The notes under the pieces: model-generated
Seen by the model: only the letters and a program-made list of their open reading frames with translations
Database searches by the model: none
Told to the model about the DNA's origin: nothing
From: Bacteroidales bacterium
GTDB taxonomy: Bacteria > Bacteroidota > Bacteroidia > Bacteroidales > Rikenellaceae
Assembly: GCA_910574205.1 (NCBI GenBank)
Contig: CAJSYJ010000002.1
Location: 248,001-312,000 of the forward strand
Length of the DNA: 64,000 bases
Direction of reading: 5' to 3'
Shown: one piece after another, positions 4,404 to 52,496 of the stretch
Layout: every line of letters starts with the position of its first letter
Position numbering within the stretch: the stretch's first letter is position 1
Made by a program: the position numbers and the translations under genes

Positions 4404-6593
4404 TTATTCTTTCTTGTATTTTCCGTTCTTCATGTCCTGCCATGTCGGACTATAGGAACAATCCTCGTGGACGAACCATGTTTCGTCCGATAATTGTCCG
4501 ACAACAGGTGCAAAGGCACTGAAATCCGTAACCGAACACCCTTCGATATGTACGGATCCGATCTTTGCGATGACAGGAAGTGCGATTCGTTCCAGAGGGG
4601 CGGCCGGTGTCATTCCCGGACCGTTTTGGTGGATCTGGAAAATCCCATCCACCTCTTCGAGTAAAGGCAGTGACAGCTCTTCCAAATACGACATGCCGCC
4701 GCCCAGCCCGAGGTCGAGGGTAAAGCCGGCGCCGCCGATCTTCCGCAGTTTAGGAAGATGCAGACCATCGTAGCTTGTAAGCGCGCAGGAGCCGTACAGG
4801 GCTTCCTTGTAATACTTATCGTTCGCCCCCGCCTTGTAGTATGCCGGATCGGCGGCCGTACCGATCTCCTCCAATTCCGGCATATCGATAGCTGCGTAAA
4901 TATTGGTACTGTCGAAGTAAAGTTGGCCGCCGATCTTGCGCAGGACGCGGAAGTCGCACGCCGTTCCGCTATCGTCGCTGACGTTGTCGCTTACGGCCAG
5001 ATAACCACCTACTTCGATAAGTTTCGGATAACCGATCTTTTCGACATCGTTCAACAGGTTGCCGCCGACCTTTTCGAGCTGGGGCGTAGAGATCGTCGTT
5101 TGAGGACCGTTGCTGAACGAAACATCGCCCCGGACACTCTTCAGCGAAGAGAACGAGCAGTCCGTTCCGGGTACATAAACGAGTCCTGCAAGCTCTTCGA
5201 CGCCATCAACCTTGCCCAACAGTTTGTTGTACCGCAGTTCGAGCGTTACATCCGCCTGCACAGGCAACGTAAGCGTTGTAATAAGATTCATGTTGGTAAG
5301 CAGGAGCCGGCCACCGCCCGAGAAAGTCGTTTGGGAAAGATTCAGCGGATCGGGCACTTTACTTAAGCTGACAAGCTCGATGCCTTTTACCTTGATTCCG
5401 TTCAGAGAAGGTATCTCGCGAAGTTCTGCGAACGCAGAGAGGACGATCGTGCCGTCCACTTCCGACAGAGAGTTCATGTCGATGGTCTTGACGCCCGTAT
5501 TCATCGCCATGCCGCCGATAGAGGTGGCGTCGGTGTTGGCGATAAGCTGAATGTCGCCGCCCACCTCGGAAAGCACTGGCAACGAAATCGTCTCGAACTC
5601 GTATGGAATCGTCGGCAACAGCACAGCTCCGGCCGAAGTCAGCGCTTCGAATTTCACGGCGTTGAGTTTCGCAAAGTTCTTGATGTTGATTTTACCGCCG
5701 ACAGATGCAAGTGCTTTCATCTCGACAATAGTCATATCGCCGCCTGCCTTCTCCTCGTTCGAGCCCTGCAACTCGAAATCGCTGCCGACTGTCGCCAAAG
5801 CGGGCGTCGTTACCGACGTAAGTGCCGCCGAGCGCATGACCAGCGAACCGCCGATTGCCGTCAGTTTCTCGGCTTCGAACCACTGCAATTTGTCGTTGCA
5901 TATCGTTATGTCGCCCGCAATCTCTTCGAGCGATCGGAGGCTCGCATAGTAGAGTTCGGGAGCGGTAGACGCCGCCTCGGTCGAGCCGATGTGCAGGCCG
6001 CCGATCTTCACAACATTTTCCAGACCGTCCAGTGTCGTGCCCTTATAGGTGTCGTTGATGACGATGTCGCCTTCGACCTGCGTGAGTGCCGAAAGCGCCT
6101 CGATGTTTGTCACGGAGTTGTCTCCGCTCGCCTCGCCGACGATAAGGTCGCCCTTGATAATCGTCACGCCTTTGTCGGCGAATGCCTTGACCTCGGCATC
6201 GGTTTTAAGCACGACATCGCCCTCTTCGCGGATATCGTCTTTTACGACGAGGTATTTGTAGTCGTTCGTCCGACCGTTGTAGGAGGTCACGCGGAACTGA
6301 CGTTCGGTATTCCAATCGGTGATTTCGGCCGGATCGGGCATGATCGTCGCCGACGGCGTGTACTTGAATTCGGCCGCAGCTCCGTCGAGCGATACGTTGT
6401 AGGGAACCGTTACGGTAATGTCGTTCCCTTCGATCGCCGCAGCATAGGAGGTTTCGCCGACGGTCAGCACCACCGATGTGATGAAGTTGTCGTCCGCATC
6501 TTCAGGAATCGGATTGATCGGATCATCATCGCTGCAACCGGCCAACATCAGAAAACCGACGGTGACCAACAATAGCATTTTTTTCAAATTCAT
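4404..6593 (-). CDS. Surface lipoprotein with L-domain/beta-helix-like repeats, B12 locus
   Basis: This is a 729-residue predicted lipoprotein (MNLKKMLLLVTVGFLMLAGCSDDD). The ATG at 6593 gives the signal peptide; the longer open frame to 6794 runs into the upstream gene and is not coding. After a short N-terminal beta domain (about residues 30-120) come many irregular repeats of the kind sLxxVxGdIxIxn...LtxIGGsLxL, the pattern of receptor L-domain or BspA-like right-handed solenoids. The SDDDP run after the lipid cysteine resembles Bacteroidetes surface-export signals. Its place between the PKD lipoprotein and btuB suggests a role at the cell surface in corrinoid capture. I know of no proven function. 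Confidence 0.8.
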   Translation of the reverse strand: MNLKKMLLLVTVGFLMLAGCSDDDPINPIPEDADDNFITSVVLTVGETSYAAAIEGNDITVTVPYNVSLDGAAAEFKYTPSATIMPDPAEITDWNTERQFRVTSYNGRTNDYKYLVVKDDIREEGDVVLKTDAEVKAFADKGVTIIKGDLIVGEASGDNSVTNIEALSALTQVEGDIVINDTYKGTTLDGLENVVKIGGLHIGSTEAASTAPELYYASLRSLEEIAGDITICNDKLQWFEAEKLTAIGGSLVMRSAALTSVTTPALATVGSDFELQGSNEEKAGGDMTIVEMKALASVGGKINIKNFAKLNAVKFEALTSAGAVLLPTIPYEFETISLPVLSEVGGDIQLIANTDATSIGGMAMNTGVKTIDMNSLSEVDGTIVLSAFAELREIPSLNGIKVKGIELVSLSKVPDPLNLSQTTFSGGGRLLLTNMNLITTLTLPVQADVTLELRYNKLLGKVDGVEELAGLVYVPGTDCSFSSLKSVRGDVSFSNGPQTTISTPQLEKVGGNLLNDVEKIGYPKLIEVGGYLAVSDNVSDDSGTACDFRVLRKIGGQLYFDSTNIYAAIDMPELEEIGTAADPAYYKAGANDKYYKEALYGSCALTSYDGLHLPKLRKIGGAGFTLDLGLGGGMSYLEELSLPLLEEVDGIFQIHQNGPGMTPAAPLERIALPVIAKIGSVHIEGCSVTDFSAFAPVVGQLSDETWFVHEDCSYSPTWQDMKNGKYKKE

Positions 6594-6612
6594 AATTTTA
6601 TATAGTTTCTGG

Positions 6613-8430
6613 TTATTTATTGTTTTCGTTATCGGGCGCAACGGACAAATCCGAGAAAGAGAATACCTCCGTCGAGACCTCTCCGAGCCAGCCGCTCTTG
6701 ACCTGCACGCCCGTCTGAACCTTGATGAAGTCCACGTATTGGAGATCGACCGGCGTGCCGTCCCGATACATGGCATTGGCGATGCGGAAGCCATTGGTCT
6801 GGCCGCTGCCGTCTACCACGTCGCCGCCGAGGTTGTCTGTTTCGCTGAAATTGTCGACATACCCCCAGCCATAGGATTGATTATCCCAGTATCCAGTGGT
6901 CGGGTCCTGCACATTGTTCGGAGCCAGACGGGTTCCGTAAAGAGTGTAGGTATCCGATTTGATCCAAGCAGGATAGTAATAATCCTGCTGATGGTAAGTA
7001 ATCAGGTAATCGATACACCCCGATTTGCCCTCCGAATCGGTCCACTGCACGTCCATCTGTTTGCCGGCGGGACGATAATAAGTGACAGCGTAATTCTGAA
7101 TAGTCCCCTCCTTATCCGTGTCGCTGCCGCGCAGTTCGTACCACTCGTCATCGGGCTCGCCGTTTTTATTGATGTCCTGCATAACCCAAACGATACCCGG
7201 TTCCGACGATCCGTCGAAAGCGTTGCCCTGAATCGTGAAGTCGTATTCGCCCTCTGCCATCGCCCGTTTGGGGATACTATGGTCGAAGCCTACGACGATG
7301 TAGCCGCCGAAAGCACCAAGCGACACCCATATCTTCTCTTTCAGACGCCCCTCGGCATAAGCTACAGCTGCCTCCTGCGTCGTCTCCGTGCCGTCGAACC
7401 CGCCCGTCTTCATCTCGCCGACGAACTGTCCCGGAGCAGGTGTATATTCCCATACCTTGTTCCACAGCGGAGAACTGTCTCCCGTGGCCGGACGGTAGCG
7501 GTCCTCTTGCGCAGCATCGACGCAGGTAACCTTTACCTCGGCCGTGAACGCCGTTTCGGCACGGATAATGTTGCGGGTAAGTTGTTTGGCCTGCTGCTTC
7601 GCTTCGCTTACCGTAACCCGGACGATATGCTCTCCCGCTTCAGTCGGTGTGTACCGGAACATGCGCGCTACGGCATCGGGAACCGTCTCGCCGTCCACGC
7701 TCCATACAAACTGCGGATTGTCGAAATAGGAGAGCTGCGGTTCGAGGAAGATCGGCGTGCCGATATAAACATAGCGGTCCGTCGATGTCCGGAAGATGGA
7801 TTGTGTGTGGAAGAAAACTTCGTAAGGGAGTTCGTCCACGACTTCGAGCGTAATCTCTTTCGTCGTCTCGCCGTCGATATTCGAAGCGTGGCAAACAACC
7901 GTATAGGTGCCAAGCTCCGCCTCGTTGAACGTATAAGTTACGCTTTCGGACACGACCTCGCCCTCGCGCAGCCATTCGCATCGAAACTCCTCCAAATCGG
8001 AGTTCTGAATATCGGGTGTAAAGATGTAGTCCGTGTTTTGCAGTACCTTCAACCCTTTTGACGGCAGAGCCAGCGAAATGACCGGTGGAGCCATCTCCAA
8101 CACCACCACTTTCAACTCCTCTTCGGCCTTGCCGTTTTCGTTCTGCACCGTGAACATTACGTACACTTCGGCCGCTTCGCTCCATGTATGGGTCAATGTC
8201 GGTTCCGTGGAGAGCAGTTTCCCGTCCAACGTCCACGAGAAAAGGGCGTTTTCTGCATACTGCACCGTTGGGGCGATGGTCAGTTCGCGGCCGACTTTTA
8301 CCGTATAGATTCCATCCTCGCTGTCGAGCGTGATTTGCGGCGTCATCGGCTGGTCGATTTCGACCTGCCCGTCCTTGTTGCATCCCGCAAGAAAGACCGT
8401 AATCAAAAAGAGAGTGTAAAGTTTTTTCAT
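6613..8430 (-). CDS. PKD-domain surface lipoprotein, B12 locus
   Basis: This is a 605-residue predicted lipoprotein (MKKLYTLFLITVFLAGCNKD). Three immunoglobulin/PKD-like modules occupy about residues 25-290, with repeated patterns such as FSWTLDGKLL, FRCEWLREGEVV and FVWSVDGETVP. A C-terminal domain of about 290 residues contains GGYIVVGFDHSIP and a calcium-loop-like DINKNGEPDDEWYEL. The start at 8430 is 13 bp after the stop of the propeller gene. Proteins of this architecture occur in Bacteroidetes corrinoid loci as surface binding proteins; equivalence to BtuH or another named binder cannot be decided from sequence alone. Confidence 0.82.
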   Translation of the reverse strand: MKKLYTLFLITVFLAGCNKDGQVEIDQPMTPQITLDSEDGIYTVKVGRELTIAPTVQYAENALFSWTLDGKLLSTEPTLTHTWSEAAEVYVMFTVQNENGKAEEELKVVVLEMAPPVISLALPSKGLKVLQNTDYIFTPDIQNSDLEEFRCEWLREGEVVSESVTYTFNEAELGTYTVVCHASNIDGETTKEITLEVVDELPYEVFFHTQSIFRTSTDRYVYIGTPIFLEPQLSYFDNPQFVWSVDGETVPDAVARMFRYTPTEAGEHIVRVTVSEAKQQAKQLTRNIIRAETAFTAEVKVTCVDAAQEDRYRPATGDSSPLWNKVWEYTPAPGQFVGEMKTGGFDGTETTQEAAVAYAEGRLKEKIWVSLGAFGGYIVVGFDHSIPKRAMAEGEYDFTIQGNAFDGSSEPGIVWVMQDINKNGEPDDEWYELRGSDTDKEGTIQNYAVTYYRPAGKQMDVQWTDSEGKSGCIDYLITYHQQDYYYPAWIKSDTYTLYGTRLAPNNVQDPTTGYWDNQSYGWGYVDNFSETDNLGGDVVDGSGQTNGFRIANAMYRDGTPVDLQYVDFIKVQTGVQVKSGWLGEVSTEVFSFSDLSVAPDNENNK

Positions 8431-10516: not shown

Positions 10517-10689
10517 AACCTTGTTTATTAAAAAGTTAAACAAAAGGTACGCACACGTCAAATCGTTCCTTGCGATGGATTCGCAACGAACGGGTGCGGA
10601 CAAGTTATCAAAAAGAAATGTGAGGTATCTGTATGATGAACCTTGTTTCATTTTGATCGAGCGCCAATTACCCGTGGTCGCTGAATCAC

Positions 10690-10865
10690 ATTGCTCATCA
10701 AGCAGGTCTTCTGACTCGTCCCATTTGTCGCGCCTTCCCAGTTTACACCAGTGGCAAAGAGTGCGACAAACATTTGCGGGGACTTACAGCTGCAGGTACA
10801 GCTCGGATTTTCACCGAATTCCCTTTTAATTCCATGCAGGCGGTACGCCTATGGAAACTTGACTG
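10690..10865 (-). ncRNA. Cobalamin (adenosylcobalamin-type) riboswitch
   Basis: Read on the minus strand, the leader contains the hallmark segments in order: a GGGAAUUCGGUGAAAAUCC stretch, CUGCAGCUGUAAGUCCC, the GCCACUGG...GGGAAGGC arm, and the B12 box AGTCAGAAGACCTGC (plus-strand positions 10702-10716). This is the classical B12 aptamer. It lies about 175 bp upstream of the DUF4465 gene and points into the uptake operon, so cobalamin is expected to switch the whole operon off. Boundaries are approximate. Confidence 0.95.
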
Positions 10866-10868
10866 GTA

Positions 10869-10876
10869 CAAAGGTA
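10869..10876 (-). promoter_or_regulatory. Bacteroidetes -7 box for the B12 operon
   Basis: TACCTTTG on the minus strand exactly matches the Bacteroidetes TAnnTTTG -7 element. It lies directly upstream of the riboswitch, so the transcript would begin at the aptamer's 5' edge. The sequence further upstream (10,880-10,960) is very AT-rich, as expected for a promoter. No clear -33 TTTG was seen. Confidence 0.6.
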
Positions 10877-11044
10877 GCATTTTTATTCTTTCGTTCTACT
10901 CTTTTTCTGATTTTTTGTTCAACTTTTTAATAGGTATAATCTATATTTATTTTGTAAGCACTTGTTTTTCATATGTGGAAACGCCGATATGGCTTGTAGT
11001 AGAGAATCGCGGCATCATCTAAAACAAACGGAGGTCGCCAGAAA

Positions 11045-11843: not shown

Positions 11844-12072
11844 AAAGATACGAATAAGCGAGGGCAATGCCAAATTTATTTGAGCATTGCCGAGCAGGAG
11901 TATCTTCGACGCAGTCAAAGTACGAATAAGCGAGGGCAAATGCAAACGTGTTTGCAATTTGCCGAACGAGAGGATCTTCGGCAAAGCCAAAGATACGAAT
12001 AAGCGAGGGCAAAAGCAAGATCGCTTGCATTTTGCCGAGCGAGAGTATCTTCGGCGCAGCCAAAGTACGAAA
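11844..12072 (+). repeat. Three tandem palindromic extragenic repeats of about 72 bp
   Basis: Three head-to-tail units share the flanks AAAG(A)TACGAATAAGCGAGG on the left and TTGCCGAGCGAGAGTATCTTC on the right, enclosing a hairpin. The stems differ but stay paired: GGCAATGC with GCATTGCC in unit 1, GGCAAAT-GCAAAC with GTTTGC-A-ATTTGCC in unit 2, and GGCAAAA-GCAAG with CTTGC-A-TTTTGCC in unit 3. A fourth AAAGTACGAA start follows at about 12,061. Related units occur near 53,728-53,875 on the other strand. The region has no gene. Confidence 0.85.
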
Positions 12073-50674: not shown

Positions 50675-51716
50675 GCAAGATGCAACGCAGGCCTCACGGC
50701 GGCAGCGGCTCGTAGAGACGGCGAAAATGGCGGAGGGCGGAGGGTGCTCGCACACTCGACGCACGACGGCATATGCGCCGGGATTCGGAAGAAGACCGGC
50801 TGCCGCCAAACAAAATACAAAAAAACCGCTTTCTTGCGAAAGCGGCTGTGAACTCGCCGGGGCTCGAACGGCACAGCCGTCGCCGGAATACAGCTGAAAT
50901 AAAACATCATTTATTCCGGCAACCCGCTATAAGTGAGAGCGCCGGCGAGGACATACCCGGCTGCAAGTTGCTGCGCAGGCCTCACGGCGGCAGCGGCTCG
51001 TAGAGACGGCAAAAATGGCGGAGGGCGGAGGGTGCTCGCACACTCGACGCACGACGGCATATGCGCCGGGATTCGGAAGAAGACCGGCTGCCGCCAAATA
51101 AAATACAAAAAAACCGCTTTCTTGCGAAAGCGGCTGTGAACTCGCCGGGGCTCGAACGGCACAGCCGTCGCCGGAATACAGCTGAAATAAAACATCATTT
51201 ATTCCGGCAACCCGAAATAAGTGAGAGCGCCGGCGAGAACACACCCGGCTGCAAGATGTGCTACGCAAGCCTTACGGCGGCAACGGCTAGTAGAGACGGT
51301 GCAAATGGCGGAGGGCGGAGGGTGCTCGCACACTCGACGCACGACGACATATGCGCCGGGATTCGGAAGAAGACCGGCTGCCGCCAAATAAAATACAAAA
51401 AAACCGCTTTCTTGCGAAAGCGGCTGTGAACTCGCCGGGGCTCGAACGGCACAGCCGTCGCCGGAATACAGCTGAAATAAAACATCATTTATTCCGGCAA
51501 CCCGAAATAAGTGAGAGCGCCGGCGAGAACACACCCGGCTGCAAGATGTGCTACGCAAGCCTTACGGCGGCAACGGCTAGTAGAGACGGTGCAAATGGCG
51601 GAGGGCGGAGGGTGCTCGCACACTCGACGCACGACAACATATGCGCCGGGATTCGGAAGAAGACCGGCTGCCGCCAAATAAAATACAAAAAAACCGCTTT
51701 CTTGCGAAAGCGGCTG
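50675..51716 (-). repeat. Tandem array of a 289-290 bp unit carrying the tRNA-Lys 3' end
   Basis: The array consists of one partial unit (50675-50847) and three full units (50848-51136, 51137-51426, 51427-51716), the last joining the real tRNA-Lys gene. Every full unit begins, on the plus strand, with TGAACTCGCCGGGGCTCGAAC, the complement of the tRNA's last 21 nt, preceded by a copy of its terminator hairpin. Identity then stops: the true gene continues CCGGGACC, the copies GGCACAGCC. Units also hold a TATTCCGG-type hairpin. Apparent ORFs repeated in the array are periodic by-products. Confidence 0.9.
51687..51714 (-). terminator. Terminator of tRNA-Lys (repeated in every array unit)
   Basis: On the minus strand, AGCCGCTTTC and GAAAGCGGTT pair around GCAA and are followed by a T-tract. 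Copies occur at about 50818-50846, 51107-51134 and 51397-51424. Confidence 0.85.
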
Positions 51717-51789
51717 TGAACTCGCCGGGGCTCGAACCCGGGACCCCAACATTAAAAGTGTTGTGCTCTACCGACTGAGCTACGAATTC
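51717..51789 (-). tRNA. tRNA-Lys (anticodon UUU)
   Basis: On the minus strand the gene starts GAATTCGTAGCTCAGTCGG. The acceptor arms GAATTCG and CGAGTTC pair with one G-U. The anticodon stem-loop CAACACTTTTAATGTTG presents TTT, and the T-arm GGGTTCGAGCCC is complete. The length is 73 nt with discriminator A and no encoded CCA. The 3' end is repeated in the array downstream. Confidence 0.95.
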
Positions 51790-51825: not shown

Positions 51826-51833
51826 CAAATGTA
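51826..51833 (-). promoter_or_regulatory. -7 box of tRNA-Lys
   Basis: TACATTTG on the minus strand matches TAnnTTTG, 37 bp upstream of the tRNA 5' end. Confidence 0.55.
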
Positions 51834-51946
51834 GACATAATTTTTCTTTTGACAAAATAATTCGCAAACTTTATAATGCAACGCATCGCAATATGGGACA
51901 TAGCGCACAGCAATGCCGTGCAGTTGTAAAGTCCCGAAAGATTTAC

Positions 51947-51974: not shown

Positions 51975-52496
51975 ATGGACGACACTGCCAAACACTGGTA
52001 TGCTCTGCGTGTGACATACGCCCGAGAATTGAAGGTCAAGAGCTTCTTCGACGACATCGACGTCGAGAGCTTCATACCCATGCAGTGCATCGAGCTGCCC
52101 GCTGCGGGACGGCGCAAGCGCAAGGCGATAGTGCCGGCCGTACACAATCTCATCTTCGTCAATATCGAGACCGAGAGGTTGAAGCAGATCAAGCGGCATA
52201 CGTCGCTGCCGATATGCTATATAATGAATCCGGCCGACAAGCGCCCCGTGATTATCGACGATAGGTCGATGCAGGACTTCATCGCTATAAGCCGCTCGCA
52301 GCTGCGCGGTTTGGAGTGGATCGAATGCACGCCCGCCGAGCTGGCCTCGGGCGACAGGGTGGAGATCGTCGACGGAGCTTTCAGCGGCGTGCGCGGCATC
52401 ATGCTGCACCGCAACGGCCGCGGCCGCTTCGTCGTATCTATCGAGGTCGCCGCAGTGGCCGTATCGCTGCCGGCGAAGTATCTAAAAAAGGTCTGA
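51975..52496 (+). CDS. UpxY/NusG-like transcription antiterminator
   Basis: This 173-residue NusG paralogue has an N-terminal NGN domain (KHWYALRVTYARELKVKSFF, ESFIPMQCIELPAAGRRK, NLIFVNIETERLKQIK) and a C-terminal KOW motif (ASGDRVEIVDGAFSGVRGIM). In Bacteroidetes such UpxY proteins allow read-through of capsule or exopolysaccharide operons that begin immediately downstream. Here the next genes are ybaK and a HAD phosphatase on the opposite strand, so it is an orphan or acts elsewhere. Confidence 0.87.
   Translation: MDDTAKHWYALRVTYARELKVKSFFDDIDVESFIPMQCIELPAAGRRKRKAIVPAVHNLIFVNIETERLKQIKRHTSLPICYIMNPADKRPVIIDDRSMQDFIAISRSQLRGLEWIECTPAELASGDRVEIVDGAFSGVRGIMLHRNGRGRFVVSIEVAAVAVSLPAKYLKKV

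Follow-up and report, generated by a model that had tools for sequence, protein, structure and literature searches.

Why should the 3' end of a tRNA gene recur several times, almost letter for letter, directly behind the gene that carries it? The question is raised by a locus in a 64,000-nucleotide stretch of DNA (hereafter the window, meaning the whole stretch that was analyzed), where three complete units (290, 290 and 288 bp) and a 173-bp partial unit stand in tandem 3' of a tRNA-Lys(UUU) gene on the minus strand. TRF recovered the array as a 290-bp tandem repeat at 50681-51737, with 3.7 copies and 97% matches. The initial annotation had already described three full units and one partial unit built on the tRNA-Lys tail, and this description holds in outline; the tail identity is, however, 22 nt rather than 21, the units measure 288-290 bp, and the partial unit, which lacks the core defined below, is the one farthest from the gene (50675-50847). 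The features of the locus are:

51826-51856, minus strand: Bacteroidota-type promoter of the tRNA-Lys gene, TTTG N19 TANNTTTG (pattern scan)
51716-51789, minus strand: intact tRNA-Lys(UUU) gene, anticodon ttt, whose 3' end at 51716-51737 is the source of the tail (ARAGORN; Rfam tRNA, 70.2 bits)
51685-51713, minus strand: intrinsic terminator H1, directly 3' of the tRNA, repeated at 51395-51423, 51105-51133 and 50817-50845 (sequence)
51426-51715, minus strand: unit U1, 290 bp, composed of a terminator segment (A), a palindromic core and a tail copy (unit comparison)
51136-51425, minus strand: unit U2, 290 bp (unit comparison)
50848-51135, minus strand: unit U3, 288 bp (unit comparison)
50675-50847, minus strand: partial unit, 173 bp, terminator segment only, no core (unit comparison)
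51429-51529, minus strand: core of U1 (model R1, E ~6e-28); the other cores lie at 51139-51239 and 50851-50951, and all are members of the R1 training set
51426-51447, minus strand: tail copy T(+), 22 nt, exact match; others at 51136-51157 and 50848-50869
51515-51527, minus strand: inverted tail copy T(-), CTCGCCGGcGCTC, by complementarity to the tail; others at 51225-51237 and 50937-50949
51457-51501, minus strand: hairpin P2, with 12-nt arms GTCGCCGGAATA / TATTCCGGCAAC (inverted repeats and covariation)
51447-51457, minus strand: hairpin P3 (inverted repeats and covariation)

The tail itself, the 22-mer GTTCGAGCCCCGGCGAGTTCAC, extends from the T-loop to just past the discriminator and recurs exactly at +290, +580 and +868 relative to the end of the gene. 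The same H1 hairpin follows every copy, including the one in the gene. A single position in 290 separates U1 from U2 (289/290 identical, 99.7%), and U3 is ~95% identical to both (~5% differences); the partial unit is closest to U3 and ends just short of the core. When the whole assembly was searched, the array was found once, in the interior of a 463-kb contig. Its neighbors are a CitMHS-family transporter gene and a NusG-like gene; the latter (51975-52496, plus strand), possibly UpxY-like, lies directly upstream of the tRNA-Lys gene in divergent orientation. As a query, the NusG-like protein retrieved no relatives. No integrase gene was found within or beside the array, and the integrase matches of this genome on the same contig are ~50 kb or more away. 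The promoter of the tRNA gene is 37-67 bases upstream of it; the Bacteroidota-type pattern occurs 5 times in the window versus 0.3 expected, with no occurrence inside the units. We discarded the idea of protein-coding units, whose long ORFs are periodic by-products with no Pfam match, and that of a known RNA family, as only tRNA matched at the gathering threshold and OTKONC and others scored far below their cut-offs. Elsewhere, the window carries a 73-bp tandem repeat (11844-12071; 3.2 copies, 80% matches) and a cobalamin riboswitch (10684-10877, minus strand; Rfam RF00174, 98 bits).

Each unit is ordered, from the gene outward, as tail, segment A, inverted tail, core and tail. Segment A starts with the tRNA terminator H1, the T-run of which pairs with a later A-run (H2), and a small hairpin (H3) comes next; in many units an outer stem encloses H1-H3. 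In many units, too, H3 and the A-run before it resemble a terminator on the opposite strand, and the antisense of A folds better, so segment A may be a bidirectional terminator. The core is a stretch of ~100 nt that emerged from the common alignment of sequences just before tail copies at different tRNAs. It comprises a T-stem-like pairing (GGGTT/RRYCCC), hairpins P2 and P3, and a final T-loop motif (TTCGA); the P2 loop is conserved as TTTATTTTCA..GGTAT or as a longer type with an extra hairpin. Together these parts form a palindromic three-way junction whose 5' arm or edge is T(-), an inverted copy of the local tail, and the DNA strand of the window core folds into this junction far better than its shuffles (z = -4.6). 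In the window, T(-) is complementary to the tail at 12 of 13 positions, with a C.C mismatch at C61, and a mismatch opposite C61 recurs across units. Over 61 units, T(-) scored the tail of its own tRNA above those of other tRNAs (p = 4e-22), and for about half of them the own-tail score was in the top 5%. Among the direct copies, the length of the duplicated stretch is not fixed (about 20 to 55 bp or more), a point against the insertion reading given below. Decayed copies usually still contain TTCGARYCC, and many copies without the acceptor part of the tail keep their palindromes. Other palindromes were seen nearby. In units at tRNA-His and tRNA-Ser, the tail copies are split after the core by a second repeat, TGCGGCGAGCAGAAGGG..GGCGTTAAGCGGAGCGACC or similar (L127, L103, L136), and a dispersed palindrome, ATTCCCTCTAAATCCCCCTTTGaCAAAGGGGGA, adjoins several tRNA terminators 3' of tRNA-Lys (L071, L074, L085, L177).

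The core is not peculiar to tRNA-Lys. A covariance model of the ~100-nt core preceding tail copies (R1) found it 7 times in the genome that holds the window and in 29 of 36 other genomes of the same genus (1-9 copies each). Leaving aside three copies that start too close to a contig end, 81 could be judged, a sample drawn through R1 matches and thus missing copies too diverged for the model. For all but one of them (80/81), a tRNA or tmRNA gene was located no more than 1.2 kb upstream, and most of the copies lie within 100-260 nt of it. Of the 81, 55 carried the tail of this very gene after the core (one mismatch or none over 17 nt), whereas the tail of one tRNA was found downstream of another in only 1.2% of control comparisons, even with two mismatches allowed. 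One seeming tail copy in that comparison (L221) was set aside, as it arose only because the alignment ran beyond the last base of the sequence. The genes with matching tails include 18 kinds of tRNA and the tmRNA. In the host genome, units were located beside tRNA-Val(tac), tRNA-Val(gac), tRNA-Ser(tga) and tRNA-Lys(ctt) in addition to the window locus, and the tail copies were found at +227 and +454 of tRNA-Val(tac), +438 of tRNA-Ser(tga) and +153 of tRNA-Lys(ctt).

The core family seems to be confined to one genus of Bacteroidota. A scan of 294 other Bacteroidales with R1 returned no credible copy; it gave one match that we took as chance (G261, with no tRNA nearby) and a weak one in G124. 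The latter belongs to another Bacteroidales family and carries, after tRNA-Ser(cga), a 120-bp, 2.8-copy array that repeats the tail of this gene (G124:C6, L126); it looks like a separate family resembling the tRNA-linked repeats (TLRs) discussed below. A family-wide trait was rejected, the core being absent from Alistipes sp. CHKCI003 and from 13 of the 14 other genomes reached via a flanking gene. It is present in the MAG Alistipes sp. RGIG7730, which, together with the lineage of the nearest named neighbor, suggests that the host genus is Alistipes-like, within the Rikenellaceae.

Comparison with close relatives supported the earlier proposal of recent amplification. In a sister species (G069), the array found at tRNA-Lys is homologous but diverged: its 305-bp units are 94% alike among themselves (288/305) and match those of the window at only about 73% of positions, against the single difference between U1 and U2. 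Two contigs of G069 (C7 and C12) terminate within array sequence. At the tRNA-Lys locus of a related clade we found two identical units (G028), two decayed units (G006), a remnant (G099) or none (G029). Unit number thus varies between genomes instead of being fixed across relatives. The partial unit in the window bears signs of tandem duplication only.

There are also signs of spread and exchange between loci. Cores at different tRNAs resemble one another more if they come from the same genome than if they come from different ones (excess 0.087, permutation p < 0.001); segment A follows the tRNA locus and has no same-genome excess (p = 0.48). In one genome (G030), the tail and terminator that close the tRNA-Lys unit are those of tRNA-Gln, and the tRNA-Gln unit closes with those of tRNA-Lys; the breakpoint is located between T(-) and T(+), within two nearly identical cores, and we conclude from the swapped ends that the exchange took place inside the cores. 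A filled and an empty site could be paired at tRNA-Lys as well: G017 has a unit and tail before the terminator and flank, and the same flank directly follows the tRNA in G056. This pair is support for insertion rather than proof, because the two genomes have little upstream sequence in common and the flank holds a dispersed repeat.

The most likely account of these observations is an insertion unit with later tandem amplification. We give a probability of roughly 55% to the reading that the array consists of repeats of the TLR kind known from Escherichia coli, that is, non-autonomous units that insert beside tRNA and tmRNA genes, restore the tail and the terminator, and then expand in tandem. 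According to this model, a small unit, in which terminator segment A is followed by the ~100-bp palindromic core and a repeat of the neighboring tRNA 3' end, would insert immediately 3' of a tRNA or tmRNA gene. The gene would stay functional despite the insertion, because the unit is flanked by the tail on both sides and brings its own terminator. The core could then spread within the genome to many different tRNAs, adopting the local tail as its border each time, and adjacent units would recombine via their identical tails and cores, leading to tandem growth, as in the window, or to exchange between loci. We infer that insertion, rather than RNA function, is the reason the units persist and that folded DNA would be the form in which they are recognized. 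A survey of Y1 transposases, reverse transcriptases and tyrosine recombinases in genomes of the genus found no enzyme dedicated to mobilizing the small units. RAYT/IS200 transposition was rejected, as none of the 38 genomes of the genus that were tested has Y1_Tnp (PF01797), and so was an origin by reverse transcription, with no reverse transcriptase in the core-rich genomes G001, G004, G008, G017, G020 and G034. A phage-borne element was also discarded: an exact-pattern scan of IMG/VR returned no viral contig with the core, and matches of the array query in phage and plasmid records covered the tRNA-gene part only.

A less likely reading, possible but not one that we favor, makes the units RNA genes. 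Transcription would read through the tRNA terminator, the RNA would be cut at the tail copy by the tRNA 3'-processing enzymes, and a second terminator would end it. The dual-terminator arrangement is what such a gene would have, and among the TLRs of E. coli, RttR and RrB have been annotated as RNAs or shown to be so, and read-through RNA with such processing has been proposed for the rRNA-linked TLR RNAs RrA/B/F (PMC8144298). The fold is conserved too, and the core folds better as the sense than as the antisense strand, a difference that loop effects may cause. The kind of pairing argues against an RNA, however. P2 and P3 contain 6 G-U versus 15 A.C in >1000 cells, a model-aligned count that depends on how the sequences were fitted to the structure, while the H1 hairpins of 54 units, counted by a strand-symmetric method, contain 12 G-U and 0 A.C, an unambiguous result; by that same method the core alone gave 6 G-U and 2 A.C, which is not significant. 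Strong covariation (205 pair-keeping double changes in the core structure versus about 51 in shuffles; 0 of 500 shuffles reach it) with almost no G-U in the core looks like selection, or homogenization, at the level of DNA rather than selection of a sense RNA. Our confidence in this view is moderate, given an alignment already fitted to the model and a core-alone count that lacks significance. Further, the units contain no promoter, the remainder of segment A (without H1) folds better in antisense, and palindromes are kept in the many copies that have lost the acceptor part of the tail. The initial annotation had considered the array a source of small RNAs; the E. coli precedent speaks for that idea, but the units have neither a Bacteroidota-type promoter nor the surplus of G-U pairs that marks a sense RNA under selection, which speaks against it.

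Tail copies do border larger elements in relatives of the host. In one genome, a 2-kb cassette of two DUF488 genes and one DuOB, possibly a small defense-type island, lies between tail copies at tRNA-Lys(CTT), next to TLR-like units (G015:C6, L177; +162 to +2184). In another (G071:C11, L084; about 5843-7190), a tyrosine-integrase gene follows a tail copy and terminator segment, and the tRNA-Lys tail is fused to the 5' half of a foreign pseudo-tRNA; this chimeric tRNA is the trace of recombination between two tRNAs across the T-arm. From the gene content at these two loci, tRNA tails appear to serve as integration sites in the relatives. The suggestion that the array is a reservoir of attachment sites was thus partly right, for the relatives and not for the window. 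It is nonetheless improbable that the units derive from ordinary tyrosine-recombinase islands using tRNA 3' ends, whether as minimal integrative elements or as remnants of att sites. The cassette, the integrase gene, the chimeric tRNA and the breakpoint in the T-loop are all in keeping with such an origin, but a single core at 18 tRNA kinds and the tmRNA, with unrelated tails, is unlike tRNA-specific att sites, and the identity of the core is mostly structural. An inverted tail copy is not known to have a role in an att site; moreover, one genome (G004) combines seven cores with no more than three tyrosine recombinases. The proposal that the array is a scar of integration and excision overlooked the main point, which is that the unit belongs to a conserved palindromic family spread genus-wide over these genes. 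Plain slipped-strand or unequal-crossover duplication of the tRNA 3' region, or an assembly artifact, with no conserved unit, would suit the 99.7% identity of U1 and U2 and the partial unit, but as a full account it is highly improbable and already contradicted by the presence of this core beside many tRNAs across dozens of genomes, the diverged homologous array in the sister species and the single-copy position of the array within its contig.

The preferred reading, insertion followed by amplification, can be set against known systems. REP/BIME sequences with RAYT are likewise non-coding palindromes of genome-specific sequence in several copies; the units described here differ in being always tied to tRNA tails and in genomes without Y1_Tnp (38/38). 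Tyrosine-recombinase islands and tandem att sites share the direct repeats of a tRNA 3' end, as well as the cargo and integrase at tails seen in G015 and G071, but the units here are non-coding, have the same core at many tRNAs and carry an inverted tail copy. Integron attC cassette arrays also consist of repeat-bordered units whose repeats fold as imperfect hairpins, yet the units here contain no genes.

The closest parallel is provided by the TLRs of E. coli. They have reportedly been known since 1978, when Egan and Landy are said to have described 178-bp repeats at tyrT, and Rudd is said to have treated the tRNA-linked repeats of E. coli in 1999. At the E. coli K-12 loci that we inspected, tail copies occur at tyrT/V, argV-argZ-argQ, lysT-Q, lysV and proK, and a palindromic core (AACGTTGCnnnnGCAACGGCCCGAAGGGCGAG..GAGT) is common to different tRNAs; a partial inverted tail copy precedes most of these cores, with the own tail best or tied in 11 of 12, a preference that is suggestive only. 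What defines a TLR is a stretch of 18-19 bp that duplicates the 3' end of the gene before it; TLRs number 1-5 per locus at ten loci, occur at rRNA operons too, and had no known function as of 2021 (PMC8144298). Both families lie directly downstream of tRNA genes, repeat the 3' end of that gene at the 3' end of each unit, form one to several units per locus (three in the window) at several loci per genome, have a terminator after the tail (in several E. coli units) and share a palindromic core between different tRNAs. They have no sequence similarity, and the units here have a different, three-way core and also occur at tmRNA genes. R1 matched none of 11 E. coli tRNA regions, and RtT was not listed in an Rfam cmscan of the array. 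In view of the tail copy, the location and the copy number, the array is by its anatomy of the TLR kind; the genus family has the anatomy that defines TLRs and is not a sequence homologue of those in E. coli. It is a doubtful, largely speculative step further to regard the TLRs of Enterobacteria and the units here as two cases of one unrecognized class of mobile DNA, with hairpin-forming cores bearing inverted and direct tail copies and an insertion site set by base pairing with the host tRNA tail, not by a sequence-specific transposase alone. If tail pairing does set the target, a changed tail would redirect the unit to another tRNA. The comparison also shows that classical islands are not alone in copying and reusing tRNA tails, which bears on the way in which tRNA genes turn into integration hotspots. 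And with an unrelated, genus-wide Bacteroidota family that has TLR anatomy, dozens of copies and signs of insertion, exchange and amplification, the origin of TLRs becomes testable by comparison.
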